A stretch of DNA of 36,679 bases, from positions 49,134-85,812 of the forward strand of contig JAJZYM010000007.1 of assembly GCA_021798115.1 (NCBI GenBank), read 5' to 3'. The notes under the pieces are model-generated. The model did not search any database. It was not told where the DNA came from and worked only from the letters and a program-made list of their open reading frames with translations. Positions 615 through 23,985 of the stretch are shown piece after piece. Both the position numbers and the translations under genes were made by a program. This DNA comes from Pseudomonadota bacterium (GTDB lineage Bacteria > Pseudomonadota > Gammaproteobacteria > JAKAQQ01). The stretch's first letter is position 1; each line of letters begins with the position of its first letter.

Positions 615-3062
615 TCAAGATCGGAGCACCCTGGAAAGTTGGGAATGGCGCAAGCGGAGCGCGGGGAGCGCGCAGGCGCAGAAGACGACAAGCCCGACCC
701 CGAGCGTCGGGAGACCATAGACCAGTGGCCCCGGGGCATGAATCCCGTAGAACCGGTGTTCGAGTAGCAGGATCGCCCACCAGGCGCCGACGATGCCAAG
801 CGTACTCCCGAGGATCCAGATCCAGAGTCCCTGTCTCAGGATCATCTCGATGACCTTGGCGGGGGTGGCACCGAGAGATTCCCGGACCGCGAACTCGCGC
901 TCACGCATGTCGACGAGGTAGGCGATCACGCCGAAGGTTCCCACACTGGCCAAAAGCAGTGCGAGGAGGCCGAAGGTTCCGAGGAGGGTGACCAGGGCGG
1001 AGGTGCCACGGAGCGCCTGCGCAACCCGGCGATGCATCGATTCGAAGTGGGACAGGACGAGATCCGGGAGCGTCCGGTGGAGTTCGGCCTTGAGCGTGCG
1101 CTCGACCCGGGAACTGGATTCCCGGGAGCGGATCAGGATATCGATGACCGGGGCACCGAGCGGAAAGCTCCTTTGGTTGTCCGCGAAAAACACGGTTCCC
1201 TGCACGGAACGCAGGCTCGGGATGAACCGGTCCCGGATGCTCCCCACGATCCCCACGATCCGGGTCGCCCCGTTGTATCCCGTGATGAGCCTGCCGAGAA
1301 CGCGGGTGGTCCCAAAAAGCCGTTTCGCAAATCTCCGGTCCACGACCGCGACGTGGGCATTCTCGGCAATGTCCGCGGCATCGATCAGGCGTCCGGAAAG
1401 GAGGTGCACTCCCATGAAGGCGAGGGTCCCGGGGCCGACCGCGACGTCGCTTGCGAGGACGTGACGGCCGCCCGAGGTGTAATGCGCGCCCGCCGCAAAC
1501 AAGCTGTAGTTGCTCGCGCTCAAGGGCGGGATATTGCGCCCGATCGCGGTGGACAGGCCGGCGGGGAGGTGTTGCAGAGCCTCGTCAAGCCTCCCTTCGA
1601 CCGTCTTGAATGTGCTCCAGTGGCGATCATCCTGCCGCGGAACGACGACCTGGCCGACATCGAGATTCTGGAGATTGAAACCGAGGTTTTGGGTGAGCAT
1701 CCGGTTGAGCGAGAGTCCGATGAACAGGGTCGCGATGAGGAGCAGCACGGCGAGAGTGATCTGGGCCACGCTGAGCCCGGTCCGGATGCGGCCAACACCA
1801 CCGGATCCGGTGATGCGCGTGCCGCCGGCGAGCAGTGTCCGAGGATTTCCCCGCAACAGGAGAATCCGTGGCAGCCCGAGCAACAGGAAACTGAGCAGCC
1901 CAGCCAGGATCCAGACGAGGATCCAGCGTTCAGGACCCTGATGGGCCTCGAAGGCACTCCGGTGCGAGGCGATGCCGAAGCTCACGAAGGCGTGCGTGCC
2001 CCAGCGGGCCAAAGGCCAGGCCACGAGTGTGGCCACACTCGCGAGGACGAGTGCCTCCCCTGCGCTGGCCGCGAGGGCGTGACGCCTGCTCGCGCCAACC
2101 GCCGCACGGAGCGCGTCCTCCGCATGACGCCCGAGACTCCGGACCAGTGCCAGATTGGCGAGGCTCGCCAACGCGAGAAAGAACAAGAGCCCCGCGCCAA
2201 GCTGGATGATGAGAAGCCGCTTCCCGGTGGCGCCGACCAGCCAGTGACGGAGAGAGAAGGTATCGGCGCGTCCGTCGACTTGCCGAACGAGGTTCTGAAG
2301 TATGGGGTCGGCCTTTCGCATCAACTGGTGAAACTCCAGGGCCAAGGCTTCCCGCAGGCGTTCGCGGGTTGTCCCCGGAGCGAGCCGGGCCAGCATCATC
2401 GAATCCACGCGATTGAACGGGTTTCGGAAATGAGCTGGCTTGAGTCTCGTGGAAAGCCAAAGACTTGTCTGCCGGGTGGGGAAAGCGAAGCGTCCAGGCA
2501 TGACGCCCATGATGGTGTAGCTGTGGCCGTTGACGGTGATGGGCTGTCCGAGCACGTGTGGGTCTTGCCCGAAGGCACGACGCCAGATGGCCGCGCTCAA
2601 GAGCGCCTCGCGGGGGCCGCCCGGCTCACCGGCCTGGGGGCTCATCCCGTTTCCGATCAAGGGAACCATGCCGAGGGTCGGAAAGACCGACGGCGTAACG
2701 AAGCCCGCGGTCAACAGGCGCGGCAGGCTTCCCGGATGCAGCCGGACGATGGCCGTGTTCTCTTGCCGGATCAGTCCGGAGTCCGTGAAGACGGGGGCCT
2801 GGCGCAGCTGGTGATAGGCTGTTGAGGACAGAGCCTGGATCGGAAATTTCCGTGTGGTCGTGTAGACCATGACCAGCCTTCGGCTTTGTGGGTAGGGCAA
2901 GGGGTGGAAGAGATAGGCATCGAGCACGGAGAAGACCGCCATGTTGGCGGCGATGCCGAGCCCGAGGGTGACCGCGAACGTCAGGAGAAAGCGGCTTTCC
3001 GGGTTCCAGTGCGCGAGGGATCTGAACAGTTGCCTGATGGAGGTGACGATCGAATCGAACAT
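615..3062 (-). CDS. FtsX/MacB-type ABC transporter permease, internally duplicated (third of three)
   Basis: Last gene of the export operon, about 815 residues. It has one N-terminal helix (about 25-48), a long periplasmic MacB-core-like domain, then four helices at roughly 280-455. A second periplasmic domain and three more helices (about 680-800) follow. This is two MacB_PCD + FtsX halves in one chain, eight helices in all, as in the acidobacterial-type duplicated orphan permeases. Conserved marks include PLPYP after helix 1, TIMGVMPGRFAFP in the first periplasmic domain, and REFAVRESLGATP before the last helices. I prefer ATG at 3062 to GTG at 3071 because it aligns with the start of the neighbouring paralogue. 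It probably works with the ATPase at 8221-8952 as a mechanotransmission-type exporter. The substrate is unknown. Confidence 0.85.
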   Translation of the reverse strand: MFDSIVTSIRQLFRSLAHWNPESRFLLTFAVTLGLGIAANMAVFSVLDAYLFHPLPYPQSRRLVMVYTTTRKFPIQALSSTAYHQLRQAPVFTDSGLIRQENTAIVRLHPGSLPRLLTAGFVTPSVFPTLGMVPLIGNGMSPQAGEPGGPREALLSAAIWRRAFGQDPHVLGQPITVNGHSYTIMGVMPGRFAFPTRQTSLWLSTRLKPAHFRNPFNRVDSMMLARLAPGTTRERLREALALEFHQLMRKADPILQNLVRQVDGRADTFSLRHWLVGATGKRLLIIQLGAGLLFFLALASLANLALVRSLGRHAEDALRAAVGASRRHALAASAGEALVLASVATLVAWPLARWGTHAFVSFGIASHRSAFEAHQGPERWILVWILAGLLSFLLLGLPRILLLRGNPRTLLAGGTRITGSGGVGRIRTGLSVAQITLAVLLLIATLFIGLSLNRMLTQNLGFNLQNLDVGQVVVPRQDDRHWSTFKTVEGRLDEALQHLPAGLSTAIGRNIPPLSASNYSLFAAGAHYTSGGRHVLASDVAVGPGTLAFMGVHLLSGRLIDAADIAENAHVAVVDRRFAKRLFGTTRVLGRLITGYNGATRIVGIVGSIRDRFIPSLRSVQGTVFFADNQRSFPLGAPVIDILIRSRESSSRVERTLKAELHRTLPDLVLSHFESMHRRVAQALRGTSALVTLLGTFGLLALLLASVGTFGVIAYLVDMREREFAVRESLGATPAKVIEMILRQGLWIWILGSTLGIVGAWWAILLLEHRFYGIHAPGPLVYGLPTLGVGLVVFCACALPALRLRHSQLSRVLRS

Positions 3063-3137
3063 GCTTGTCACCGGGTTGATGAATGGTCCAACGAGTGGGG
3101 AGATCTCGAAGCGCTTGGTCGGAATCCCCGGCGTGAT

Positions 3138-5606
3138 TTACTCACGGTGGAGGGCCACGGCCGGTGGGATGCGGCTCGCCCGCGCCGCGGGGATCCAGGT
3201 GGCGAGCAGGAAGACCAGCGCGAGAAGGGCAATGCTCGACGAGATGCTGAAGGGATCGTCCGGCGCGATTCCGTAGAGCAGGGTGGAAAAGAGGTGCCCG
3301 AGGACGATCATGCCGGCGAGCCCGACCAGGAGGCCCGTTCCGAAGAGGCGGGCGGCCTCTCCGAGCACGTGGCGGAGGAGTGCGGGTGGATCTGCGCCGA
3401 GCGCCGTGCGGATGCCGAACTCCCGAGTTCTCCGGTTGACGAGATAGCTTTCGACGCCGTAGAGGCCGATCGCCGCGAGGAGGAGCGCGCCCAAGGCGAA
3501 GAGGCCGATCAGTCCGAGAAGAGCATCACGGTTCCGGAGTCTCTGGTGAAGACGGGCCTCGAGCGTACGGAGGTGATAGATGGGGAGCCAGGGGAAGCTC
3601 TTTCGGACGGTCCGGCGCAGAGCGGTCTTGAGAGTGGCCGTGCGCAGCGGGGAGCGGATCACGAAAGCCCACGTCCGAAGAGAGAACCAGGCGGGAGCCA
3701 GTGCCCCCGCCTGTGGGGCATCGAGGTAGACCGTTCCGGTTGTTGGCGATCGGCCGAGGTGCCGGTTCCGGACTGTTCGCACGAGGCCGATCACCCGGTA
3801 ACGGAGGCCCGGCCGGGTATTGTTCGGTGTGTTGAGTGTGAAGATCCTGCCTACGGGATTGTCGTGGCCAAAGAGCTGATGTGCGGCCAGCCGGTCGATC
3901 ACGGCCACGCCGGCTGTCGATCCGGCATCCTCCGGCGTGAAAAGCCGCCCGCGCAGTGGCACGAGACCCAGTGTCTTGAGATAGCCGCTATCCACCGCCC
4001 GGAGATAGGCGGTCACCATCGGATCACGGGGCGACCAGGGAACGGGGAAAATGGCCTCGGTGAAAGAGTTCGTTTTGGCGAACGGCAGTCCCGACGTGAT
4101 GCCGGTGGCCCGGACACCGGGGATGGCCCCCGTCATGGATTGGAGATGGTCGAGAGTCGGCCAGAGCTTCTGGGGAGTGATTTGACTTGAGGGGAGGTCA
4201 ACGTCAAAGGCGAGTGTGTGGGCGGTTCGAAATCCTGGGTGCACGGACGCGAGATCGAGCATCGTATGCGCGAGGAGGAGAGTGATCCCGATCATGGCGG
4301 TGGCCAGGGCGGTTTGCCCCCCCACCAGGATGCGCCGGAGACGTGCGGCCCCTCGTGAGGTCCCCGACCGCTGTCCGGCTTCCCGGAGGGCCCCTCCGAG
4401 GTCCATCCTGCGGGTTGACAGGTAGGAAACGAGCGTCATGACCAGGATCGAGGATCCGGCAACGGCGAAGGTCAAGACCGTCATGAAGAGAGGTTTCCCC
4501 TGGGCGATCGGCACGGTTCCCGGCAGGATTCGCGCATCGACCATGAAATCCGTGAGCCCCGCCCCGATCAGGAGACCGAGAAGCAGGCCCGGAAGGGTGA
4601 TCCAGAAGGTTTCGAGTGCGAAACGCACGAGGAAGCTTCCCGGTTGGGCCCCCAACACTTCCCGCAGGTTGATCTCACCGCGCTTGACGAGTCCACGGGC
4701 GAGAAAGAGATTTGCGAGATTGAACCAGACGAGAATGAGGAGAAGGACGGAGGCCATCTCGATGAGGGTGAGGAGCGACCGGACGCCGCCGCTCGTGGCC
4801 TCACGCCAGCTTTCCGCCCGGGCCGAAAAGTGGGCGAAGAAATCTTTCCGGGCCGCGGGGGGAAAGCGTCTCAGGAGTGCCGCGGTCAGGGTCCGGACTT
4901 GCGTGTCAAGGGCGGCGATCGAACGGCCGGGAGCGAGACGTCCGATCAGGTGGCCTCTGAACTCGGTCAACTGGAAATAGCGGAAATCGTAGGGCGTGAA
5001 GGGATAAGGGAGCCACAGGGCCACCCCCCGGTCCGGGAAGTGGAATCCGGGCGGCATGATCCCGATCACGGTGTAGGCGTGTCCATTGAGATCGAGGGTG
5101 GCCCCGAGGGCATCGGCTCGGCCGTCGAACTCGCGTTGCCAGAAGCGATCGCTCAGGACGACGACGGGCGGTGCTCCCGGTTCGCTCGCCCGGTCGACAA
5201 AGACCCGTCCGAGGAGCGGCTTGACCCCGAGGGTCGGGAAGAGGGAGCCGGTCGTTTCCACGGCGGTGATGCGGGTGACGCGTCCGTGGACATCGAGGTT
5301 CTCGCCGCGTGAGCGGTAGAACGCGGCATCGGCGAGGGCCCGGGCACCGGTTCGGAAGTGCGCGTACGCCACCGGAGACATGGGTCGCGAGAGACCCGGG
5401 TTCCCGGGCATCGTGAGCGAGACGCTGACGAGACGGCTGCCGTGGGGATAGGGCAGCGGTCCGAGGAGCGCCGCGTAGAAAATCCAGGAGGAGGCGAGAA
5501 TCACGCCGATGCCGAGCGCGAGCGTCAGGATCGAGGAGAGGGAGAAGCCCCATTCCCGGCGAAGTCGCAGGAGCGCCTGGCGGGATTCGATCAGGAGATC
5601 TTGCAT
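3138..5606 (-). CDS. FtsX/MacB-type ABC transporter permease, internally duplicated (second of three)
   Basis: 822 residues, same double architecture as its neighbours: N-terminal helix (about 20-45), periplasmic MacB-core domain, four helices (about 270-455), second periplasmic domain, three C-terminal helices (about 695-810). Family marks are GPLPYPHG after helix 1, YTVIGIMPPGFHFP near residue 180, and RTREFGIRTALGADP before the last helix pair. ATG at 5606 is preceded by GGGAG about 9 bases upstream. The stop is 75 bases before the next permease gene. It differs from the two neighbours at most positions, so this is an old expansion, not a recent copy. With one ATPase gene for three permeases, the subunits probably share the ATPase or form alternative complexes; that is inference. 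Confidence 0.87.
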   Translation of the reverse strand: MQDLLIESRQALLRLRREWGFSLSSILTLALGIGVILASSWIFYAALLGPLPYPHGSRLVSVSLTMPGNPGLSRPMSPVAYAHFRTGARALADAAFYRSRGENLDVHGRVTRITAVETTGSLFPTLGVKPLLGRVFVDRASEPGAPPVVVLSDRFWQREFDGRADALGATLDLNGHAYTVIGIMPPGFHFPDRGVALWLPYPFTPYDFRYFQLTEFRGHLIGRLAPGRSIAALDTQVRTLTAALLRRFPPAARKDFFAHFSARAESWREATSGGVRSLLTLIEMASVLLLILVWFNLANLFLARGLVKRGEINLREVLGAQPGSFLVRFALETFWITLPGLLLGLLIGAGLTDFMVDARILPGTVPIAQGKPLFMTVLTFAVAGSSILVMTLVSYLSTRRMDLGGALREAGQRSGTSRGAARLRRILVGGQTALATAMIGITLLLAHTMLDLASVHPGFRTAHTLAFDVDLPSSQITPQKLWPTLDHLQSMTGAIPGVRATGITSGLPFAKTNSFTEAIFPVPWSPRDPMVTAYLRAVDSGYLKTLGLVPLRGRLFTPEDAGSTAGVAVIDRLAAHQLFGHDNPVGRIFTLNTPNNTRPGLRYRVIGLVRTVRNRHLGRSPTTGTVYLDAPQAGALAPAWFSLRTWAFVIRSPLRTATLKTALRRTVRKSFPWLPIYHLRTLEARLHQRLRNRDALLGLIGLFALGALLLAAIGLYGVESYLVNRRTREFGIRTALGADPPALLRHVLGEAARLFGTGLLVGLAGMIVLGHLFSTLLYGIAPDDPFSISSSIALLALVFLLATWIPAARASRIPPAVALHRE

Positions 5607-5735
5607 GGGCCCGCTCCCGGGTGGTGACGCCGCCTTCCCCGGCCTGAGGGCCTGCGATTTGGTAGGGCTCGCCGGACTTCCCGTGCGCGAGGCGAATCGC
5701 TCAGGGGGTGACCCGGGGGGCGTGTCCTGAGCATG

Positions 5736-8204
5736 CTAGGCGGCTCCCGATTTGAGGAGATGGCTCCAGTCCGCCTGGGCGATGTTTCGGACCGGAACCC
5801 AGGAAGCCGTGAGCACGGTCGAGACGATGATGAGAATGCCGAGGACATCCGCCGGCCAGTCGAGCCCCGGGATCCCGTAGAGCACGCCCTCGAGAAGGTG
5901 GGTGAGGAAGAGAGCCAGGGTCACTCCCAGGGAAAGACCCAGGGCCAGCATCCAATACCCTTCCGCGAAGGCCATGCGGTTCAGGGAGGTGGGACTCGCG
6001 CCCACGGCTGTACGGATGGCGTACTCCTGGCGACGGTTGAGGCTGGTCTGTGCGGTCAGGGCATAGACCCCAAAGATCGTGAGAAAAAGCGCCACCAGGG
6101 CGAAGACGGAGGTGATCTCGGTGATGCCGAGAAAGAGGCGGTCGGAGGCTCGGATCAGGGTCTCGAGCCGGATCAGATGGGTGGCGGCCACTCCCGGGGC
6201 GGCGCCTTCGAGCGCTCTCTGGATCATCCGGAGGTGATTCAAGGCGCCTGGGCTCAGCCTCAGGATGACATTGCCGGCGACGAATTTGTACCCCGGATAC
6301 GTGAGAGGCATGTACATCATGCCGACGATGTTTGTCGCCGGCGTCGCTCTCCAGGACACTTTCCCCACGACACCCACGACAGTGGCTCGAGGGGATCGGG
6401 GCCCGAACGGCCGGAAGCTGTGCCCGACCGCTTCCACGGTTCCGAAAAGACGTCGGGCAAGCCGTGCGCTCAGGATGACGACGGTGGCTCGATCCCTTTC
6501 TTCCGCCCGAGTGAAGTTTCGTCCGGCCACGAAGGGAATGCGGAGGGTCCGGAAATAGGCCCGCGACACTTTCTCGGCGCGGACATAGAGGGATTCGTGG
6601 GGGGGCGTGGGGGATCGGATCGTACTGTGGGAACTCATGAGGTTATTGAAAGGCACCATGAAGCCCAGCGCCGCATGCCGCACCCCAGGGAGATGCTGCA
6701 AGGCCGGGGTTATCTCTGTCCAGAAGTGGGCCATGGAGATGTGATGCGGCATGATCACCATCGTTTCAACACGATTCCTCGGATCGAAGCCGAGGGGGCG
6801 GTTGAGGATGTTGATGAGACTTTGAAAGATGACCAGCCCGACCATGACGAGCACGGTCGCCATGAGGACCTGAAAAGCCCCGAACCCTCTGCGCATGAAC
6901 CGGGCCGCTCGTGCCGTGCCCCGCTCGCCGGCTTCATGCACGAGCGTTCCGAGCCGGGATTCCCGTCCGGAAAAAAAGAGTGCCATGAGCTGGATCGTGG
7001 TCACGATGAGGAGAGCCGTCCCGATTCCGTAGATCACCGAGAATTCGCCAAAACGGATGGTGAAAGGGAGAGCTACGGAAACGGGTCCGGTGAGGGCGGA
7101 GCTGATGAGGGTGCGGAAGAGTGAGCAACCGAAATCAGAGATCACGAGCGAACCCAGGATGACGGCACCGAGCGTCACGAGCGATTCGACGAGCATTGCC
7201 TGGAAGAGGTTCATGCCGGTGGCACCGAGTGCGCGCCGCACGGCAAAGTGGGTGGCACGTCGCCGAGACCGGACGAGGGTCAGGTTAATGGAGTTCACGA
7301 TCGCGATGAGCGGCAAGAGGAGGCCGATCAGCGCGAGCAGGAAGAGCAGGACCGGCTTACCGCCGAGGAAGATCTTGAGGAGCCCTTTGTGGAGAGGCTC
7401 CGCATCGATCGTGAAACCGTCCTGTTCGGCACGCAGGCGCTGGGCTGGGCTCTCGGCGGCCAAAGACCGGTTCCGATACCCCTCGAGCCAGACATTGAGC
7501 TCTCTTGGCGAAGTGCCCGGAGACAGGCGGGCCACCATCATATGGTTGATGTTGTGGTCCCGCAGGCGGGCGGGTGTCAGGACCCGTGGGATCCAGAAAT
7601 CCGCCCCCGGGTAGATCGTGAAGAAGCTTCGGGGCATGACCCCGACCACGCGGAAGCGCTTCCCGTTGAAGCGGAAACGTTCGCCGATGGCCGCCGGTGA
7701 GCCCGCGAAGGCGGATTTCCAGAAACCGTATCCGAGGACGGCCTCCTCAGGACCGCCGGGCCGACCGGATGCAGGGCTCAGCCAGTGACCGAGGAGCGGC
7801 GGGACGGCGAGCGTGCGGAAGAGCGAGGGGGTTGCGAAACCCCCGAAGGCCACATGTCTGACGCCGTGGACCGTGAGCGGGCCTCCCGTCATGTCGATCG
7901 TCCCTCCGGATCGGATGAACGGGGTGCCTTTCCGGAGAGCCGCGTAGGCATGAAAGGAAACCTCGTGTCCCATGAGTCCCACTCTGGGCAGGCGTTCGCG
8001 GATCAAGACCAACTGGCGTGGATGGGGGTAGGGCAAAGGTCGCCAGAGGAAGCCGTCGAGGACGGTGAACATCGCGCCCGAGGTGCCGAGCGCCAGCGCG
8101 AGCATCATGATGATCGCAGGGGAGGTCGAGCGCAGGGCGTGCCAAATGTGGGATCCCGAATGGGATGACGGTTCACCCGGATGCAAGGAATGCGGCATGG
8201 TCAT
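5736..8204 (-). CDS. FtsX/MacB-type ABC transporter permease, internally duplicated (first of three)
   Basis: 822 residues. It directly follows the ATPase gene, with 16 bases between the ATPase stop and the ATG at 8204. A second ATG at 8198 (MPHSLHPGE) has better spacing from the GGGAG ribosome site and may be the real start. Layout: N-terminal helix (about 30-52), MacB-core periplasmic domain with VVGVMPRSFF, four helices (about 280-460), second periplasmic domain, then three helices with the FtsX mark RRQEYAIRTAVGASP. As the permease next to the ATPase it is the most likely primary partner. No residue loss or frameshift is seen. An orphan permease role independent of the ATPase cannot be excluded. 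Confidence 0.87.
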   Translation of the reverse strand: MTMPHSLHPGEPSSHSGSHIWHALRSTSPAIIMMLALALGTSGAMFTVLDGFLWRPLPYPHPRQLVLIRERLPRVGLMGHEVSFHAYAALRKGTPFIRSGGTIDMTGGPLTVHGVRHVAFGGFATPSLFRTLAVPPLLGHWLSPASGRPGGPEEAVLGYGFWKSAFAGSPAAIGERFRFNGKRFRVVGVMPRSFFTIYPGADFWIPRVLTPARLRDHNINHMMVARLSPGTSPRELNVWLEGYRNRSLAAESPAQRLRAEQDGFTIDAEPLHKGLLKIFLGGKPVLLFLLALIGLLLPLIAIVNSINLTLVRSRRRATHFAVRRALGATGMNLFQAMLVESLVTLGAVILGSLVISDFGCSLFRTLISSALTGPVSVALPFTIRFGEFSVIYGIGTALLIVTTIQLMALFFSGRESRLGTLVHEAGERGTARAARFMRRGFGAFQVLMATVLVMVGLVIFQSLINILNRPLGFDPRNRVETMVIMPHHISMAHFWTEITPALQHLPGVRHAALGFMVPFNNLMSSHSTIRSPTPPHESLYVRAEKVSRAYFRTLRIPFVAGRNFTRAEERDRATVVILSARLARRLFGTVEAVGHSFRPFGPRSPRATVVGVVGKVSWRATPATNIVGMMYMPLTYPGYKFVAGNVILRLSPGALNHLRMIQRALEGAAPGVAATHLIRLETLIRASDRLFLGITEITSVFALVALFLTIFGVYALTAQTSLNRRQEYAIRTAVGASPTSLNRMAFAEGYWMLALGLSLGVTLALFLTHLLEGVLYGIPGLDWPADVLGILIIVSTVLTASWVPVRNIAQADWSHLLKSGAA

Positions 8205-8220
8205 CGCTCCCGGTGGTGCT

Positions 8221-8952
8221 TCAGGGATGCGTGAGACCGGACGAGAAACTCTCTTCCTGGGTCTCCGCGTCGTCCACGATCTGCCCGTCCATGAGCCGGA
8301 TGATCCGGCGGGCGAAGCGGGCGTAATGGGGATCGTGGGTGACCATGAAAAGGGTTGCGCCCTTTTCGTGGAGGGCCGCCAAAAGTTCCATCACCGCCTC
8401 GCCGCTCTTCGAATCGAGGTTGCCGGTCGGCTCATCGGCCAGGAGGATCGACGGCTCTCCGACCAGGGCGCGGGCGATCGCGACCCGCTGTTGCTGTCCG
8501 CCGGACAGTTGCCCCGGGTAATGCCGCAGGCGGTGGCCCATGCCGACTTCCTCGAGCACGGTCCGGACCTTGTCCCGCCGCTCGGCACGGGGGATGGAGC
8601 CCCGATAGACCAGGGGGAGCTCGACGTTCTCCTCGACCGTGAGATCTCCGATCAGGTTGAATGCCTGGAACACAAAGCCGATATGCCGGTTCCGGACCCG
8701 CGCCCGCTCGGCCGCGTTCAGCGTTTCGACGGGGGTCCCGGTGATGCGGTATTCCCCGGCGGTCGGAGTCTCGAGGAGCCCGAGGATCGAGAGAAGCGTG
8801 GTCTTCCCGCAGCCCGAGGGACCCATGGCGACAATGTACTCGCCGGGATCGATGGTGAGCTCGATCCCTGTCAGGGCATGGGTTTCGACTTCTTCGGTGC
8901 GATAGACCTTGGTCAGGCCTTTGACCTCGATCACGGGTCCGGTGGCGTTCAT
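8221..8952 (-). CDS. ABC transporter ATP-binding protein, MacB/LolD type
   Basis: 243-residue nucleotide-binding subunit that would power the FtsX-type permeases encoded next to it. All motifs are intact: Walker [10 protein letters not shown] (residues 44-52), Q-loop in FVFQAFNL (about 93-100), signature LSGGQQQR (149-156), Walker B ILLADEP (169-175) followed by TGNLDS, and H-loop VTHD (His206). The pattern, with TGNLDS after Walker B, is that of the MacB/LolD/FtsE group, in which ATP hydrolysis moves periplasmic domains and does not carry substrate through the membrane. ATG at 8952 has a strong GAGGAG ribosome site 8 bases upstream. It is the only ATPase gene in the operon. Cytoplasmic, membrane-associated. 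Confidence 0.93.
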
Positions 8953-9024
8953 AAGGATTCTCCTCGGGGTGATGGGGAAGGGATCGGTGGGCTCACCGAA
9001 GGGCGCGCGGGTGAATCGGGGGGA

Positions 9025-10449
9025 TCACGGAGGGCTCTCGCCCGTATCGGATTGAAACATCTTGCTCAGCGTCAAGAGACTCAGGGGTGTGAGCAGGCCC
9101 GCCGTCGATTCGAGCGCCAGGGCGTCATTGATGACGGCGGCCTGGACTTGCGGAAGATGGGTTTCCGCGCTGAGGAGCGCGAGACGCGCATTGACGAGAT
9201 CGAATTCCGAACGCAACCCGGCCTTGACACCGTCTTGCGTGGCCGTGACGGCGCGGTGTGCGGCCACGACGCTCTCTTCGTAAGCATGGAGATCGGCGAA
9301 ATCGGCGTGGAGGGCGCTCAAGGCGCGTTCGGCCTGAGCCTCACTTCTGAGCGCCGCGCGGACCGCCTGTTCACGTGCGAGTGTGTACTCATCCTCGGCC
9401 CGGTCGACCGAGGCATTCGTGCCGCCGCCGGCATAAAAGTTCCAGTGCAGGTTGAGAAGGATGAGGTTCTGCTGGGCGGTGTTGGCGGCGGGTGCGGGAA
9501 GGTCGAGCACACCCGGCACGGCATAACCGTAGGTCCCGCCTGTGAGATTGCGCGTGTGGCTCACCTGGACACGGATCGAGGGCCAGTATCCGCCGCGCGC
9601 GGCCGAGACCTCCGCGTGGGCCGAACGAGCCTTGAGCTTTGCGGCCACAACGACCGGGTTTGCGAGACGGGCGGCATGGACCCACTGCCGTCGCCGGAGT
9701 GGAGGCAGGGGAATCAAAGGGATGGAGGATGTGCGCGCGGCGAGGTCCGGCATGAATGAGGGACCCGTCAGTTCCGCCAGTGACGACAGGGCCTGGCGGA
9801 GTTCGCGGTGGGCGTCGATCACCCGGGCTCGAGCGCTGGCCTCGGCCGACCGAGCCTCCTCAAGCCCGATGATTCCGCGGAGTCCGGCCTTGTGGCGCGC
9901 GCGCGCCTGCGCGGCCTCGATCGCAAAGGCTCTCGCGGTTTTCCGGGTCGCGAGAAGCTGCGATTGGGCCACCAGGACGGCCAGATAGCGGCGGACCAGG
10001 CTCCTCATGAGGGCCATCCGGGTCGCCGTGTAGGTTGCCCCGGCGGCGGCGGCGGCGCCGTTGGCCGCCGCCAGTTTTTCGATGGCCGTCCAGCTGAAAA
10101 GCGGCTGCGTCAAGGTCACGGTCCAATAGCTCTGGCGGGTGTTCTCGGACTGTTCGACCGTGAGAAGGCTGCTTCCGTAAAACTCGGGACCGACGCTCCA
10201 GGCGTTGGTATAGAGACGGTCGGCATCCAGACTCAATCGCGGCAGGAGTCCGGCCAGTGCCGCGGGGCGCCGGGTCCGGGTCGCCGCAAGACGCGCCCGG
10301 GCTTCCCGGAACTGGGGATCGAAATGCCGGGCGGCGAGCCAGGCGGCCCACAAGGATCCGGGTTGGACCCTGGAGCGGGGTTGGGCGTGTGCCTGAGGGA
10401 GGCCGAGTCCACAGAGGATGAATCCGAGGCTCGTACAGGCAAGCCTCAT
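9025..10449 (-). CDS. TolC-family outer-membrane efflux protein
   Basis: 474 residues. From ATG at 10449 the protein begins with a typical signal peptide (MRLACTSLGFILCGLG, then AHAQ as a likely cleavage site). The open frame extends upstream to 10620, but that part overlaps the adaptor gene and lacks a signal-like sequence, so I use the internal start. The mature part is rich in Ala and Leu helices with two OEP-type repeats. LTQPLFSW and LHWNFYAGGGTNASVDRAEDEYTLARE are in the places where TolC proteins have their conserved strands and the following helix. It would form the outer-membrane duct for the adaptor and the ABC complex. The gap to the adaptor stop is 52 bases. Second gene of the operon. 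Confidence 0.88.
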   Translation of the reverse strand: MRLACTSLGFILCGLGLPQAHAQPRSRVQPGSLWAAWLAARHFDPQFREARARLAATRTRRPAALAGLLPRLSLDADRLYTNAWSVGPEFYGSSLLTVEQSENTRQSYWTVTLTQPLFSWTAIEKLAAANGAAAAAGATYTATRMALMRSLVRRYLAVLVAQSQLLATRKTARAFAIEAAQARARHKAGLRGIIGLEEARSAEASARARVIDAHRELRQALSSLAELTGPSFMPDLAARTSSIPLIPLPPLRRRQWVHAARLANPVVVAAKLKARSAHAEVSAARGGYWPSIRVQVSHTRNLTGGTYGYAVPGVLDLPAPAANTAQQNLILLNLHWNFYAGGGTNASVDRAEDEYTLAREQAVRAALRSEAQAERALSALHADFADLHAYEESVVAAHRAVTATQDGVKAGLRSEFDLVNARLALLSAETHLPQVQAAVINDALALESTAGLLTPLSLLTLSKMFQSDTGESPP

Positions 10450-10501
10450 GGCACGCCTGTTTCGGGGCTCGGCCGGATCTCGGGTCGGAAACGCCACGGC
10501 T

Positions 10502-11773
10502 TCAACCGCGAATGCGGACGCGGGGGGCGCCCGAAAATCCGGAAGTGTCGGAGATGATGACCCGTTCCCCGGGCTTGAGTCCCTCGAGAACCTGTATCGC
10601 ATTGCTCGAGGCCATCCCAAAGCGCACGCTCACCGGAGTGGCTTCGCTTCCGCCGTGCACCAGCCGGTAGAGGGTCATGGTTTTTCCGTTGGCGCTGTAG
10701 GCCGGACGCTCGACATAAACGGCATCCTTGAGTGTGGTGACAAGGATGAGACCATTGAGAGCGAGGTTGGGCCGGGCGTCGGCGGGAAGGGTCCCCTTGG
10801 GTTCGGCATCCACCGTGACGGTTCCGCCCTCCACCGAGGGAGAGACCCGCGTCACGACCGCGGAGAGATGATGGCCGGATCCCGTGTCCAGTGTGAGCTC
10901 CACGGGCTGTCCGGTTGCGACCTCGGCGGCTTCACTGGCCGGAACCTCGAGCTTGGCCTTGAGCGCGTGCATATCGGCGATCTCGGCAATGGCGCTCCCG
11001 AGGTCCAGGCGCTCCCCTTCCTTCACGGCGACGCTTTGGACGACACCGGTCAGCCCGGCGCGGATCCTGAGCGAGGCCAGCTCATGCTCATCGTTCCGGA
11101 GTGCGGCCCTGAGCGCATCGATGCGCGCACGTTGGGCGTGGATCTGGGCGGTCTGGTTCTTCTTGAAATCGACGATGCGTTTCTGTGTCAGTCTCACTTC
11201 TTGTGCGAGCGACTCGGACACGAGCCGGCTCCGGGTGTATTGCAGTGATCCCACAACCTCCTCGGCCAAGAGCCCCTTTTCCGCCTGGGCCTTGAGTCTT
11301 GCCGCCTGGGCCTCGGCGCTGATCTGTGCGAGCGTGCCTTGGAGCGTCAAAAGATGGTCGTCCAAGGCGGCTTCCTGTGAGACCAGGGACGCTTCGGCGT
11401 CCGCGAGTCTGGCCCGGGCTTCCGTGACCTGGTCCTCGAGACCGGGGTTCGAGACAATGGCGAGGATGCTGTTGGCCTGGACCGGATCGCCGGGCTCGAC
11501 CCGGATCTCCTGAATGGTTCCCGGGGCGCCGGCCGTCACCATGCGGATCCTGCGCGGGGTCAGGGTTCCTGGAGCACTCACCGTCACAGAGAACCGGCCT
11601 TGCTTGACCGTCGCGATCCAGAGGCTCGATTTGGCAACACTCGGCCCGGCCGGTGCCAGCCTCAGGATCAGGACGGCGGCCACGAGGAGGACCAGGACAA
11701 CCGCGCCGAGAAGGCCCACACGGCGCAACTTCTGGCGACGGCGCTCGGCCGGCGGGATGGCGATATCGACCAC
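10502..11773 (-). CDS. Periplasmic adaptor (membrane fusion) protein, HlyD/MacA-like
   Basis: First gene of the export operon, 423 residues. Start GTG at 11773, with GAGGT about 8 bases upstream and a sigma-54 promoter just before it. A membrane anchor spans about residues 18-38. It is followed by a biotinyl-lipoyl half motif (TVSAPGTLTPRR, then GTIQEIRVEPGDPVQANSILAIV), a long coiled-coil hairpin (about 110-240, rich in Ala, Glu and Gln) and the second half motif GVVQSVAVKEGERLDLGSAIAEI. Beta-barrel and membrane-proximal domains follow, ending in GLKPGERVIISDTSGF. It should bridge the inner-membrane permease and the TolC-like channel. Substrate specificity is not visible. The family cannot be split finely into MacA or HlyD by eye. 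Confidence 0.9.
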   Translation of the reverse strand: MVDIAIPPAERRRQKLRRVGLLGAVVLVLLVAAVLILRLAPAGPSVAKSSLWIATVKQGRFSVTVSAPGTLTPRRIRMVTAGAPGTIQEIRVEPGDPVQANSILAIVSNPGLEDQVTEARARLADAEASLVSQEAALDDHLLTLQGTLAQISAEAQAARLKAQAEKGLLAEEVVGSLQYTRSRLVSESLAQEVRLTQKRIVDFKKNQTAQIHAQRARIDALRAALRNDEHELASLRIRAGLTGVVQSVAVKEGERLDLGSAIAEIADMHALKAKLEVPASEAAEVATGQPVELTLDTGSGHHLSAVVTRVSPSVEGGTVTVDAEPKGTLPADARPNLALNGLILVTTLKDAVYVERPAYSANGKTMTLYRLVHGGSEATPVSVRFGMASSNAIQVLEGLKPGERVIISDTSGFSGAPRVRIRG

Positions 11774-11805
11774 GGCATGGACCTCGAAAGTCTTCTTCTA
11801 TCCGA

Positions 11806-11821
11806 TGCAATTCGTGTGCCA
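11806..11821 (-). promoter_or_regulatory. Sigma-54 (-24/-12) promoter of the export operon
   Basis: Read on the minus strand the bases are TGGCACACGAATTGCA, preceded by C. This matches the sigma-54 consensus (TGGCAC, one base, N4, TTGCA) at every conserved position: GG at 11820-11819 and GC at 11808-11807. Transcription would start near 11795, leaving about 20 bases of leader with a ribosome site before the GTG at 11773. The divergently encoded NtrC-type regulator is the obvious activator. Confidence 0.87.
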
Positions 11822-11858
11822 GGTAGCTCGAAAAACGATTTATTTCTGATTATCAGAA

Positions 11859-11903
11859 GGATACACACAAGTCCTGCTGCATCGTGGGGTTGTGTGCGTA
11901 TCC
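11859..11903. promoter_or_regulatory. Inverted repeat, candidate enhancer site for the NtrC-type regulator
   Basis: GGATACACACAA (11859-11870) and TTGTGTGCGTATCC (11890-11903) are inverted copies of each other apart from two extra bases. They lie about 65-110 bases upstream of the predicted transcription start, where sigma-54 activators usually bind. A small palindrome, CTGATTATCAG (11846-11856), sits just beside it. Binding is inferred. Confidence 0.5.
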
Positions 11904-11931
11904 CGCTCCTGCAACGGATTTGATAGAGTGA

Positions 11932-11945
11932 TCCCAGAACTGGGA
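11932..11945. promoter_or_regulatory. Perfect palindrome before the response regulator gene
   Basis: TCCCAG-AA-CTGGGA is a perfect 6-base inverted repeat ending 13 bases before the GTG start of the response regulator. It overlaps the region where that gene's promoter or leader must lie, so it may be an autoregulatory operator or a second activator site. Confidence 0.45.
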
Positions 11946-11958
11946 CGAGGACCGGTGT

Positions 11959-13347
11959 GTGGACGACTCCGTCAAACAGGAATCCGTTGATCGGAACCGG
12001 GCCTGTGTCCTCATCGTGGATGACCAGGCTGACGTCCGGCGATCCCTCAAACTCCTGATTGAAGGAGAAGGCTACCGAGTGGTCACGGCCGCGAGCCCTG
12101 AAGAAGCCATGGTCGAGGCCCGGAGGCTTCAACCCGACATCGTGTTCCTGGATCTCAACTATCAAACGGACACGACGTCGGGACTCGAAGGACTCGAACT
12201 CCTGAGCCGCCTCCGTGCGCTGGATGCCAACCGCCCACTGGTGGTCCTGACCGGTTGGGGGACCACCTCCCTCGTGGTCGAGGCCATGAGACGGGGCGCG
12301 CAGGATTTCCTCGAGAAACCCTGGGACAACGCCCGTGTCCTCACGGTGCTCAAAAACCAGTTGGCCATGGTCAGAGTCCAAGAGAGATACCAGAGACTCG
12401 CGGCCGAGAACCGGCTCCTCCTGGAACCTCCTTCCGGGCTGGTCACCCGGTCCGAGGTCATGAAAGAGATTCTCCAGAGCGCCGAAAGGGTGGCGGCTTC
12501 CCATGCCACCGTCCTCATCACCGGTGAAAGCGGTACCGGCAAGGGGCTTCTGGCCCGCTGGCTGCACGAGCACTCGTCCCGTAAAGACGGTCCTTTCATC
12601 CCGGTCAACCTGGGTGGGCTGGTCGAGAACCTTCTCGAGAGCGAGCTCTTTGGACATGTCCGGGGCGCCTTTACCGATGCCCGGAATGAACGGATCGGAC
12701 GCTTCGAACTCGCCCACAAGGGGACACTCTTTCTCGACGAGATTGCCAACCTGTCACCCGCCTCCCAGGCCTCGCTGCTCCATGCCTTGGAGGAGGGATT
12801 CATCGAACGGGTGGGCAGTTCAAAACCGACTCCGGTCGATGCCCGGATCGTGGCGGCGACCAACGCCGACATCCGGGCCCAGGTGAAGGACGGTCGGTTC
12901 CGGGCGGATCTCTTCTATCGGTTGAACACGGTCGAGATTCATCTGCCGCCCCTGAGGGAGCGGGGGGAAGATATCGTTCTTCTGGCGAACCACTATTTCG
13001 AGGAAGCGGTCCGTCGTCACGGGAAGGACCTGACCGGCTTTTCGCCGGGGGCCCTCCAGGCGCTCACTCAATACGACTGGCCCGGCAATGTCCGTGAGCT
13101 TGCCCATGTGGTGGAACGCGCGGTTCTCCTGGCGGGGGGGCGCTCCATCGAAGCCCGTGACCTGCGGCTCACGTCCGGAGTATCTTCCGGGTCGTCCGAG
13201 ATCGAGGCCCTGACCCTGGAGCAGGCCGAACGCTATCTCGTCTCCCGTGCACTCGAGCAGTGTCAGGGTGACGCGGACGCGGCGGCACGAAAACTCGGGT
13301 TGAGCCGAAGCGCCTTTTATCGCCGTCTCTCCAAATACCGGCAATGA
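11959..13347 (+). CDS. NtrC-family sigma-54-dependent response regulator
   Basis: 462 residues, GTG start at 11959 with a GACGAGG ribosome site. The receiver domain (about 14-138) has the acidic pair D21/D22, phospho-acceptor D65 in FLDLNY, T98 and K120. The AAA+ domain has Walker A GESGTGKG (189-196), Walker B TLFLDE (256-261) and the arginine-finger region FRADLFYRLN. The sigma-54 contact loop reads GAFTDA (236-241), not the classical GAFTGA. The C-terminus is a Fis-type helix-turn-helix (AARKLGLSRSAFYRRL). It is followed after one base by the kinase gene and diverges from the export operon, whose promoter it most likely activates when phosphorylated. Confidence 0.92.
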   Translation: MDDSVKQESVDRNRACVLIVDDQADVRRSLKLLIEGEGYRVVTAASPEEAMVEARRLQPDIVFLDLNYQTDTTSGLEGLELLSRLRALDANRPLVVLTGWGTTSLVVEAMRRGAQDFLEKPWDNARVLTVLKNQLAMVRVQERYQRLAAENRLLLEPPSGLVTRSEVMKEILQSAERVAASHATVLITGESGTGKGLLARWLHEHSSRKDGPFIPVNLGGLVENLLESELFGHVRGAFTDARNERIGRFELAHKGTLFLDEIANLSPASQASLLHALEEGFIERVGSSKPTPVDARIVAATNADIRAQVKDGRFRADLFYRLNTVEIHLPPLRERGEDIVLLANHYFEEAVRRHGKDLTGFSPGALQALTQYDWPGNVRELAHVVERAVLLAGGRSIEARDLRLTSGVSSGSSEIEALTLEQAERYLVSRALEQCQGDADAAARKLGLSRSAFYRRLSKYRQ

Positions 13348-13348
13348 T

Positions 13349-14698
13349 ATGAAGGGGCGCCGGTTTTCATTGCACTCTCTCACGATGGCGGCCATGGGGG
13401 TCGGCGTCCTGCCGTTCTTGCTTCTCACACTCGCCTGGCTCGTGGGCGGGATCACGACCCGCACCACAGCCTTGGGAGGGCTGGCCGTGGCGGTGATTCT
13501 CGCGGCGTCGGTCGCGAGCGGGTTGGGTCGCTACCTGGAACGGCGGATGCGCCAGGGCGCCTCCTTGCTGCAGGCGATCCGTGAAGGAGATTACTCCGTC
13601 CATGCGCCGATCGAGGATCGGGGCGGGCTGCGCGAGATGTTCTCGGAAATCAACCGTCTCAGCACGGAGCTCAGCGGTGCCCGTCAGTCCGGTATTGAAT
13701 CCGATGCCCTGTTGGGTCGCCTGCTGAGCCATCTCGAACTCGCGGTTTTCGTCTTTGATCCCGCAGGCCGTCTGACCGGTCTCAACCGTGCGGCCGGGGA
13801 CCTCATGGGAAAGTCCGTTTCTCCTTTGAGAGGACGCACGGCGGAAACACTGGGACTCGCGGACTGGCTGTCACCGAGCTCCGATGTGCGAGTGGCCCGG
13901 CGTAGTTTTGCCGGGAGATCGGGCCCCTGGGAAGTGCGTGCCCTCAAGTTCCGTCGGGGAGGGCGCACGCATACGCTGCTCGTCATGACCGATGCCAGCC
14001 GCACATTGCGTGAAGAGGAAAGAAGGGCGTGGCGCCGCCTGATCCGAGTCCTGGGGCACGAACTCAACAACTCCCTCGGTCCGATTGCCTCGGTCGCCGA
14101 TACGCTCAAGCGGCAGGTCTCCTCCCGCGGCGAGCACTTCGCGCCGCTTCTCGAGGGGCTCGAACTCATCGAACGCCGGACCCGGAACCTCACGGATTTT
14201 CTCAAGCGGTATCGGGAGTACGCGCGCATGCCGCCACCGAGTTTCAGCGAAGTGAGCCTGGCACGGCTCGTGAGGGAGGTGGCCGCCGTAGCCGGAGATC
14301 CGAGACTCAGAGTGCAGGGAGGCCCGGAAGTCACCTTCCGCGCCGATCGGGCCCAGCTCGAGCAGGCCCTGATCAACTTGATCCGCAATGCCCTCGACGC
14401 CGTCGCCCGACCGGAGGGCACGGTCGAACTCAACTGGAGCGAGACCTCTCAGGCCGTCGTGATCGAGATTGTGGATGACGGTCCGGGACTTCCTCAAACG
14501 GACAATCTGTTCGTTCCATTCTTCACGACCAAGACGGGTGGCAGCGGCATCGGTCTTCTCATTGCCAGGGAAGTGGCCGAAAACCATGACGGGGCTCTCG
14601 AGCTCACCAACCGGGAAGACCGGGGGGGAGCGATCGCCCGCCTCTCGCTGGCAAAAGCCCCGCGCGTCACCCCGGTCCGTGATGAGCGCCCGTTCTGA
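13349..14698 (+). CDS. Membrane sensor histidine kinase, NtrY-like
   Basis: 449 residues, co-transcribed with the regulator (one base between stop and ATG). Two membrane helices lie close together (about 14-34 and 41-58) with only a few residues outside, so there is almost no periplasmic sensor. A HAMP-like linker (about 60-110) and a PAS-like domain (about 120-220) follow. The kinase core has H237 in RVLGHELNNSL, N347 in NLIRNALDAV, DDGPG (376-380), the F-box FFTTKTGGSGIG and a second G box. The HELNN form and overall layout are those of NtrY-type kinases. The signal is probably sensed in the membrane or cytoplasm. The partner is the regulator at 11959-13347. Confidence 0.9.
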   Translation: MKGRRFSLHSLTMAAMGVGVLPFLLLTLAWLVGGITTRTTALGGLAVAVILAASVASGLGRYLERRMRQGASLLQAIREGDYSVHAPIEDRGGLREMFSEINRLSTELSGARQSGIESDALLGRLLSHLELAVFVFDPAGRLTGLNRAAGDLMGKSVSPLRGRTAETLGLADWLSPSSDVRVARRSFAGRSGPWEVRALKFRRGGRTHTLLVMTDASRTLREEERRAWRRLIRVLGHELNNSLGPIASVADTLKRQVSSRGEHFAPLLEGLELIERRTRNLTDFLKRYREYARMPPPSFSEVSLARLVREVAAVAGDPRLRVQGGPEVTFRADRAQLEQALINLIRNALDAVARPEGTVELNWSETSQAVVIEIVDDGPGLPQTDNLFVPFFTTKTGGSGIGLLIAREVAENHDGALELTNREDRGGAIARLSLAKAPRVTPVRDERPF

Positions 14699-15410: not shown

Positions 15411-15953
15411 ATGAAGCGGTTTGATCTGTTGAATCGCCTATCCGCCCTGGAACAGAAAGGTTTCGTCGTCTATCCCCGACGAGACTTGGAGAAGGTTTTT
15501 CCGGAAGATGGTGAAAAAGCGCTGGAGAAGGGTTTGCAGCGCATGTGCCGGGACAAGCTTCTGGTTCGCGCCGCTCGCGGCATCTACGTTTTTGCTCCAG
15601 CTGTCCCGCGTCACCGAGGTTGGTTGATCGAGCACATCGCGCAAGCCCTACGCCCTGGAGATTTCAATTACGTTTCCCTGGAAAGCATCCTCTCGGAATA
15701 CGGCGTGATCTCGCAGATTCCCGTGGACCGTCTGACGGTCATGACGACGGGCGCGAAAGGGCTCCACAAGACTCCCTTTGGGACCATTGAATTTACGCAC
15801 ACCCGGCGCAGCATTCCGGATCTTCTGGAACGAACGTTGGTTGTTGAGGGACACCCGTTGCGCATTGCCAAAAAGCAGGCGGCCCTCCAGGATCTACGCC
15901 GTGTGGGACGGAACACGAACCTGATTGATTGGGACGAGGCCAATGATGAATAA
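15411..15953 (+). CDS. AbiEi-family antitoxin / transcriptional regulator (type IV toxin-antitoxin)
   Basis: 180 residues. The N-terminal part (about 1-65) is a winged-helix domain ending in LLVRAARGIYVFAP, typical of AbiEi proteins. The rest, with YVSLESILSEYGVISQIP and PFGTIEFTHTRR, matches the antitoxin domain of the family. It should repress its own operon and counteract the nucleotidyltransferase toxin encoded next to it without binding it directly, as known for type IV systems. The stop overlaps the start of the toxin gene. The ribosome site before ATG 15411 is weak. Base composition is less GC-rich than in the export operon, which fits horizontal acquisition. Confidence 0.82.
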   Translation: MKRFDLLNRLSALEQKGFVVYPRRDLEKVFPEDGEKALEKGLQRMCRDKLLVRAARGIYVFAPAVPRHRGWLIEHIAQALRPGDFNYVSLESILSEYGVISQIPVDRLTVMTTGAKGLHKTPFGTIEFTHTRRSIPDLLERTLVVEGHPLRIAKKQAALQDLRRVGRNTNLIDWDEANDE

Positions 15954-16851
15954 AAATGATTTTGCGCAATACGTCGATATGGCCATGCAGGGTGACGGGC
16001 TAGGCTTTCTGCGTCCCGTGGTGGAGAAGGAATTGCTGCACTATGAGATTTTCAGCGCATTGGACGAAGAGGGGTTGTTGAAGAACCTGGTGTTTCAAGG
16101 GGGAACCTCTCTGCGTCTCTGTTACGGCTCCGAGCGATTCAGTGAAGACCTTGACTTTGCGGGTGGAAGGAATTTCTCCGCTCGGAATATGGCCGCCGTC
16201 AAGAACTGCATTGCCGGGAAGATTGGCGAACGCTTTGGCTTGGATGTGACGGTTCGGGAGCCCAAGGACGCTCCTTTCGAGGGGGCGGTACGAGTGGATA
16301 GATGGGTGATCACGATCCAGACCAGCCCAGATCGCCCGGACGTTCCACGGCAAAAGATCAAGCTGGAAATTTCCAATGTTCCGGCCTATTCCCGGAACAT
16401 TCTTCCCTTGAGAATTAACTACTCCGTCCTGGAGGGTCGTGCTCAGCCCTTGGTGGCGGTCGAGTCCAAAGATGAGATTTTGGCGGACAAGATGATTGCC
16501 CTTCCTGCTTCCATTTCCAGGGTATCGGATCAAGGGATGGAGTTCACCCCGTTGCGGATCAGGTATCGGGATGTTTGGGACATTGCGTGGTTGTCGGGTC
16601 AGGGAGCGCGGATGGATGTCCGTCTGGTCGGAAAGAAAATCGTGGATTATGGATTGGATGAATTTCCTAGGCTTCTGGATCACGCCATGGCCAAGATTTC
16701 GGGGATTGCGGGTGGAGAGGAGTTCGACGCACAGATGGCACGGTTCCTGCCGCAGACTCAACATGACCGGGTGTTCGGCAAGGCGGGGTGCGAGAAATAT
16801 TTCGAGAGTGCCGTTGGTGATTTGTTGCGCCGGCTGCGAACGGAACTCTAG
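15943..16851 (+). CDS. AbiEii-family nucleotidyltransferase toxin
   Basis: 302 residues from ATG 15943. A second ATG at 15946 is better spaced from GACGAGG (15933-15939). The gene overlaps the antitoxin by 11 bases. The nucleotidyltransferase core is clear: FQGGTSLRLCYG (about 51-62) followed by SEDLDF with D69 and D71, the GS...DxD motif of the family. Later come ESKDEILADKMIAL and RYRDVWDIAWL, corresponding to the conserved Lys and Asp motifs III and IV. AbiEii proteins transfer nucleotides to RNA (tRNA in a studied homologue) and cause growth arrest or abortive infection. All key residues are present, so the module looks functional. Confidence 0.88.
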   Translation: MMNKNDFAQYVDMAMQGDGLGFLRPVVEKELLHYEIFSALDEEGLLKNLVFQGGTSLRLCYGSERFSEDLDFAGGRNFSARNMAAVKNCIAGKIGERFGLDVTVREPKDAPFEGAVRVDRWVITIQTSPDRPDVPRQKIKLEISNVPAYSRNILPLRINYSVLEGRAQPLVAVESKDEILADKMIALPASISRVSDQGMEFTPLRIRYRDVWDIAWLSGQGARMDVRLVGKKIVDYGLDEFPRLLDHAMAKISGIAGGEEFDAQMARFLPQTQHDRVFGKAGCEKYFESAVGDLLRRLRTEL

Positions 16852-18529: not shown

Positions 18530-19023
18530 TTGCCGATGGTGCGGAGATGACCGTAGAAGCGTTTCTTGCCTCCCAGAGAGAGTTGTTTTTCTGTAACCTT
18601 CCCGCCACCAACACCAAGAGATCAGTCGTTTTCGGTTGACCTTTTCTCTGTCCTGGCGTATGAGGTCCCTGGGGTTCGGCGTTGCCCTTCCGGAGTGGAG
18701 ACGGATGAACCACGACGGCGTCCCTGTCAAGCGCCCTTTGACTCCCTGTCGTACGGTCGAGAATTTTCCATGTTCATGCGGGCGTCACGTCAACCGCCGC
18801 GTCTTGGCAGAGTCGGGTCGAGCGATTTTCGATTCCGCTCCCGGCGAACGAACCGCCCGCGGCGCTCTTGTCAGCCTTCCGAGGCTCTGCCGCCGTCGGC
18901 GAAGATCCCGATCGCTCCAACCCGGGCGTTGATCGGGAACTCCAATACCCATGCTATCCTGCCAGAAATCATCCAGGTTTCGCTCTTCTCACGAACGAAG
19001 CGGCCGGGAAGAGGTGTCGAGCA
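18530..19023. other. Non-coding gap before the racemase gene
   Basis: No family-like open frame is seen on either strand. TATCCT at 18955-18960 is a possible -10 element about 64 bases before the racemase start, but no good -35 is paired with it. The first 80 bases after the toxin stop are AT-richer than the rest. Confidence 0.35.
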
Positions 19024-19736
19024 GTGATCAAGGCCGGCATGATCGGTGGTATCGGGCCGGAATCGACGATCGCCTATTACCGGCACATCGTGACCGCCCA
19101 CCGCGCACGCGCACCGTCCGGCGCCTACCCGAGGCTGCTCATCAACAGCATTGATTTCGGCGCGATGTTGGCTCGGCTCGAACGCGACGACCGGCCGGGG
19201 TTGATCGCCCTTCTTCGCACCGAGGTGGAATCGCTGGCGTGTGCGGGCACGGGGGTTGCGCTGCTTGCGGCCAACACGCCGCACATCGTCTTCGACGAGC
19301 TTCAGCGGGAGGTGTCGATCCCCCTTCTCAGCATCGTCGAGGCCACCTGCCGGGCCGCGTTGGCGCAAGGCCTCAGGCGGCTCGCTCTCTTCGGCACACG
19401 GTTCACCATGCAGGGCCGCTTCTATCCGTCCGTGTTGGGCGCCCGGGGCATCGAGCTGGTCGTGCCCGATCCTCAGGAACAGGCCTACATCACGACAAGT
19501 ACATGCACGAATGGGTTCACGGGGTGTTTGATCCGGATGTGCGCCGACGTTTGCTCGAAATGGTGCAGTCACTCAAACAACGCGCGTCCATCGACGGTGT
19601 CATCCTCGGTGGGACGGAGTTGCCGCTGATCCTGGACGACAACGGGACGACCGGGATTCCGTTTTTGGACACCACCGCGATCCACGCCGACGCGCTGGTC
19701 GAATACATGCTGGCGGCCTCGTCCGCGGCCTCGTGA
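19024..19736 (+). pseudogene. Aspartate/glutamate racemase family protein, frameshifted
   Basis: GTG at 19024 with GAGG upstream starts a protein beginning VIKAGMIGGIGPESTIAYY, the standard start of amino-acid racemases of the Asp/Glu type. The first catalytic-loop region is ALLAANTPHIVFDEL. The usual first catalytic Cys (A.CNT) appears to be replaced by Ala/Asn here. The frame is sound until about 19490, where one base is missing (TACATC then ACGACAAG). The rest (KYMHEWVHGVFDPDVRRRLLEMV, GVILGGTELPLIL, TTAIHADALVEYML) continues in the next frame to TGA at 19734. The second Cys position, normally in GCTE, reads GGTE. Without the shift it would be about 237 residues. Sequencing error is possible, but the missing cysteines also argue against racemase activity. 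Confidence 0.75.

Positions 19737-21709: not shown

Positions 21710-23985
<2,276 letters not shown>

Follow-up and report, generated by a model that had tools for sequence, protein, structure and literature searches.

How the exporter operon on the minus strand of this locus is switched on, and through which DNA sites, is the question raised by the two-component genes that diverge from it. The sequence-only reading had proposed a sigma-54-dependent exporter with all of its parts inside 14 kb of the window (the whole 36,679-nucleotide stretch of DNA analysed), and the genes concerned do span 615-14698, or ~14.1 kb, with the divergent pair encoding an NtrC-type regulator and a histidine kinase as it had stated.

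10502..11773, minus strand, HlyD/MacA-type periplasmic adaptor, exporter gene 1 (PF13437, PF16576; TIGR01730 above cut-off)
9025..10620, minus strand, TolC-type outer membrane channel (PF02321)
8221..8952, minus strand, ABC ATPase of the MacB/LolD type (PF00005; NF038007, TIGR02211 and others below cut-off)
5736..8204, minus strand, ADOP-like MacB/FtsX permease A (PF12704, PF02687; TIGR03434 440 bits, below cut-off)
3138..5606, minus strand, ADOP-like permease B (TIGR03434 591 bits, below cut-off)
615..3071, minus strand, ADOP-like permease C, with which the operon ends (TIGR03434 477 bits, below cut-off)
11959..13347, plus strand, NtrC-type response regulator composed of a receiver, an AAA+ domain with a GAFTDA loop, and a Fis HTH (PF00072, PF00158, PF02954)
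13349..14698, plus strand, sensor histidine kinase with two TM helices and a very short periplasmic loop (PF02518; hydropathy)

The three permeases resemble the ADOP family (TIGR03434) in their full-length matches of ~800 aa and their duplicated MacB_PCD and FtsX domains, with two MacB_PCD stretches in each; B and C also have two FtsX stretches, and A has one. All three score under the curated cut-off of 622.3 bits and are therefore named ADOP-like here rather than filed as members; also unlike that family, separate genes for an ATPase, an adaptor and TolC share their operon. The adaptor, MacB-type permease and ATPase, and outer membrane channel are the components of MacAB-TolC and of the darobactin exporter DarBCD, but the present operon encodes three permeases, all of the duplicated type. 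MacAB expression is controlled by PhoPQ in Salmonella and E. coli (PMC5985334), and we found no direct precedent in the open-access literature for sigma-54 control of MacB/ADOP exporters. Orthologue matches to the TolC-type ORF start near residue 45-58, and its true start is probably an ATG near 10452, before the signal peptide. Beyond permease C lie convergent housekeeping genes (phosphoglucomutase, TIM).

Other genes of the neighborhood were noted in passing. Near the two-component genes, a DUF6088-like gene (below cut-off) is followed by an AbiEii nucleotidyltransferase gene (15411-16851), and the two look like a type IV toxin-antitoxin pair. An apparent aspartate/glutamate racemase ORF, identified by eye, seems to be split across two frames (18868-19629 and 19239-19736), as a pseudogene or through a sequencing frameshift. 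The same neighborhood holds a catalase-peroxidase-like gene (21769-23985; PF00141, two stretches).

Two elements precede the adaptor gene.

11806..11821, minus strand, sigma-54 (-24/-12) promoter of the exporter operon, TGGCACACGAATTGCA (exact match, unique in the genome, kept in 13/13 operons)
11781..11786, minus strand, Shine-Dalgarno-like CGAGGT of the adaptor gene, 7 nt before its GTG

The promoter had been placed 33 bases before the adaptor GTG on the minus strand, and that is where it stands: TGGCACACGAATTGCA occupies 11821-11806, and the GTG begins 33 bases further on, at 11773. It carries the GG-N10-GC core within TGGCACR-N4-TTGCW. Its description as perfect holds in that the strict consensus is matched exactly, but is slightly generous, as position 7 of TGGCACG is an A. 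By chance, 0.26 matches with at most one mismatch would be expected per window; one was found, and it is exact. Across the whole 1,880,174-base genome, TGGCACRNNNNTTGCW was matched once, at this promoter. The same genome encodes rpoN (PF04552, E=4e-40). A comparable site, TGGCATGGCTCTTGCA, precedes a glutamine synthetase-like (glnA-like) ORF that starts 33 nt after it, with a second NtrC-type gene ~3 kb away, and serves as an internal positive control for the sigma-54 promoters of this genome. The looser pattern TGGCAYNNNNNNTGCW gave 13 sites across the genome versus 29 control matches, so these are mostly chance and the glnA-like one alone stands out. On this sequence evidence, we regard the exporter promoter as a genuine sigma-54 promoter. 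A predicted -24/-12 site also precedes the HlyD-type adaptor gene of XF2093-94 in Xylella, although that operon encodes an RND pump and the predicted site is 263 nt upstream (PMC3224663).

Related operons were located by regulator protein homology alone, independent of any promoter pattern, and 20 loci were fetched, several of them from incomplete MAGs. Regulator identity was 57-100% in 18 of the 20, which fall into two clades. The near clade belongs to the same family as the window and shares its divergent gene order; the distant clade, at 57-59% regulator identity, has adaptor-(TolC)-ATPase-permeases-regulator-kinase in one direction. The adaptor start is covered in 13 non-redundant operons (the window included), and each of them, in either clade, has TGG-N9-TGC 48-56 nt upstream of the adaptor start codon. 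One genome (G007, a MAG of another genus; noted at L033, JAJYFY010000066.1, and G007:C9) contains a contig with a regulator 100% identical to that of the window besides its own diverged copy (L036), the identical one being either binning contamination or a recent transfer.

Upstream of the promoter, the alignment of these operons (A1) contains paired TCCC-N6-GGGA dyads 30-31 bp apart, whose centers, counted from the -12 GC, lie at -125 to -130 and -95 to -99. Those of the window stand on either side of a predicted promoter element of the regulator gene.

11932..11945, no strand, distal dyad A, putative enhancer, TCCCAGAACTGGGA (TCCCAGTTCTGGGA read towards the exporter); position and sequence kept in all related operons
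11901..11914, no strand, proximal dyad B, putative enhancer (TTGCAGGAGCGGGA read towards the exporter); aligns with perfect dyads of the relatives
11921..11929, plus strand, putative extended -10 of the regulator gene, TGATAGAGT; TGnTAnAnT kept in L034-L039

Dyad A is perfect in the window, and 130 bp separate its center from the -12 GC. Dyad B, 31 bp from it, is half-degenerate: its GGGA half is invariant, and the other half is missing in the window species, L034 and L035. Dyads at one or both positions were found in 13/13 operons, and in L048, where the contig is too short to reach the distal dyad, it was found in the whole genome. The geometry of promoter and dyads persists despite the different gene order of the distant clade. 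Such tandem dyads at a fixed distance upstream are candidate enhancer sites for the cognate activator. An IHF-like site was absent from the loop region of the window; in the relatives, L039 has one exact match, and the matches of L034, L038 and L041 are weak, and we propose no IHF site for the loop.

Whole-genome scans tie this architecture almost exclusively to the exporter. A composite pattern (dyad, spacer, GGCAY-N6-TGC) was run on 17 genomes and gave 0 control matches. Full-architecture matches precede the adaptor gene in 16 distinct operons, with the proximal dyad half-degenerate in three. The sole full-architecture match elsewhere stands before an ADOP-like permease gene in G004 (C70), apart from the operon. 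The exporter operon of G004 is without permease B; its unlinked permease is closest to permease B of the set (37%) and is 54% identical to a permease of the G048 exporter operon. A tandem-dyad scan of 369 genomes of the class matched in only three, two of them in the family of the window, where one match belongs to an exporter and one is the unlinked permease of G004. In the relatives G001 and G008, regulator, adaptor and promoter are absent together.

Some matches from the scans were set aside. Single-dyad matches in L088, L090, L105, L111 and L113 have no second dyad and no exporter and were taken as chance, as was one in L100, which failed a re-scan under the same criteria. Dyad matches in G048:C1 were rejected as part of a 27-bp tandem repeat, TCCCAGACGTGGGACGACCCTTGGAAG, present in at least three copies (5542-5636).

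The sequence-only reading overlooked that the dyads coincide with the predicted promoter of the regulator gene. The extended -10 of that gene falls between dyads B and A in the near clade, which suggests exporter activation combined with autorepression, and a regulator bound at the dyads would probably block the promoter of its own gene. The dyads might instead be operators of the regulator gene and nothing more, with some other element activating the exporter. Their position astride the regulator -10 agrees with this, as does L036, a regulator paralogue (2228-2488) lacking an adaptor over the 2.5 kb upstream that its locus covers, in which both dyads are kept at the regulator promoter and the -24/-12 element is broken through a 4-base loss; the role at the regulator promoter is thus separable from activation. 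However, the distant clade has its regulator gene further down the exporter operon and its dyads before the exporter only, yet at the same distance from the sigma-54 promoter. In L038, whose intergenic region is longer at 340 bp, the best dyads still hold that distance, and the unlinked permease of G004 carries the full set with no regulator gene beside it. L036, L038 and the distant clade are three natural cases that separate the two roles of the dyads, and we consider an operator-only function very unlikely. In the distant clade (L041, L043, L044, L046-L048, L050), GCATAAT occurs ~5-10 nt before the regulator ATG, near enough to suggest a leaderless internal promoter.

The regulator contains the receiver, the AAA+ sigma-54 interaction domain and the Fis HTH of a group I bEBP. 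Its sigma-54-contact loop reads GAFTDA in all orthologues (alignment A2), while GAFTGA is found in most other regulators fetched. This variant could mean that the regulator makes no contact with sigma-54, so that the promoter is driven by another enhancer-binding protein, such as NtrC, with the local system as a repressor. For the GAFTDA protein VfmH, interaction with sigma-54 was not detected, and its activity was not settled there (PMC10714721). A survey of Desulfovibrio vulgaris, on the other hand, lists GAFTDA among the loop variants expected to keep activity, and DVU2106 of that organism carries it (PMC4641369). The sigma-54 promoter is, moreover, kept wherever regulator and adaptor co-occur, and a regulator without sigma-54 contact seems a shade less probable still than dyads that act as operators only. 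Least probable of all is the enhancer of the sequence-only reading, an inverted repeat at ~11860-11903 or the palindrome 11844-11858: both repeats (11844-11858, and 11859-11870 with 11890-11903) do exist, imperfect or short, with arms GGATAC..ACACAA / TTGTGTG..GTATCC at a plausible distance, but neither was found in the promoter of any other species, 28% of dinucleotide-shuffled versions of the region contain exact 7-nt arms, and dyads at fixed positions explain the enhancer geometry better. Both candidates were therefore rejected, and the conserved palindrome, at 11932-11945, falls outside the coordinates first reported.

We return to activation through the tandem dyads, and give a probability of roughly 0.85 to a locally closed sigma-54 circuit made up of kinase, regulator, dyads, TGGCACACGAATTGCA and exporter operon. 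Weighing against it are the GAFTDA loop, the half-lost dyad B of the window, the absence of an IHF-like site from its loop region and the incompleteness of many of the MAGs compared. Upon stimulation, the kinase would phosphorylate the NtrC-type regulator, which would assemble on the two TCCC-N6-GGGA dyads, ~95-130 bp ahead of the -12 element. It would then loop the DNA and hydrolyze ATP to open the sigma-54 polymerase at TGGCACACGAATTGCA, and the transcript would cover the adaptor, TolC, the ATPase and the three ADOP-like permeases. In the near clade, the bound regulator would probably also repress its own gene through the same dyads flanking its extended -10. What can be read from the DNA itself is the conservation and geometry of promoter and dyads, the gene content, the presence of rpoN and the near-exclusive link to the exporter. 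At this level, 13/13 operons and the whole-genome scans give strong support to the core claim that a sigma-54 promoter links the exporter with the divergent NtrC-type system; what emerges is a conserved, largely self-contained predicted circuit with its enhancer position corrected.

The closest model is NtrC at glnAp2 of enteric bacteria, a sigma-54 promoter with two tandem enhancer sites near -140 and -108, about three helical turns apart. The activator is of the same class, the paired dyads lie ~30 bp apart at a similar distance, and the site is likewise usable for autorepression. Unlike glnAp2, the circuit here has a TCCC-N6-GGGA dyad, a GAFTDA loop, a tripartite exporter as its target and a dedicated kinase. 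The exporter switch is a soundly supported case of a well-known type of control.

The kinase has no periplasmic domain, with ~10 residues joining its two TM helices. Its orthologues are similar in layout by simple window hydropathy, with one merged segment in L045. This near-absence of a periplasmic part suggests that the signal may be perceived inside the membrane or by way of the permeases. A two-TM kinase with a minimal extracellular loop, encoded beside a MacB-superfamily permease, recalls the Bce modules (BceRS-BceAB), in which the response of BceS requires BceB (PMC5985334), and makes sensing through the permease conceivable. The described Bce modules, however, are those of Gram-positive bacteria and involve neither sigma-54 nor TolC. 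A Gram-negative, sigma-54-dependent counterpart, in which the kinase monitors how the ADOP-like permeases are working and the regulator adjusts linked and unlinked exporter genes via the tandem dyads, is a speculative and rather unlikely extension by analogy. If it were true, the exporter would report its own load via the kinase.

ADOP-type permeases are common in some bacteria, and little is known of their cargo or control. With its complete, conserved set of parts and its defined regulator site, the switch offers a way to induce the exporter and so to find its signal and substrate. The dyad motif also allows further members of the regulon to be found in other genomes, as in the case of the unlinked permease of G004.
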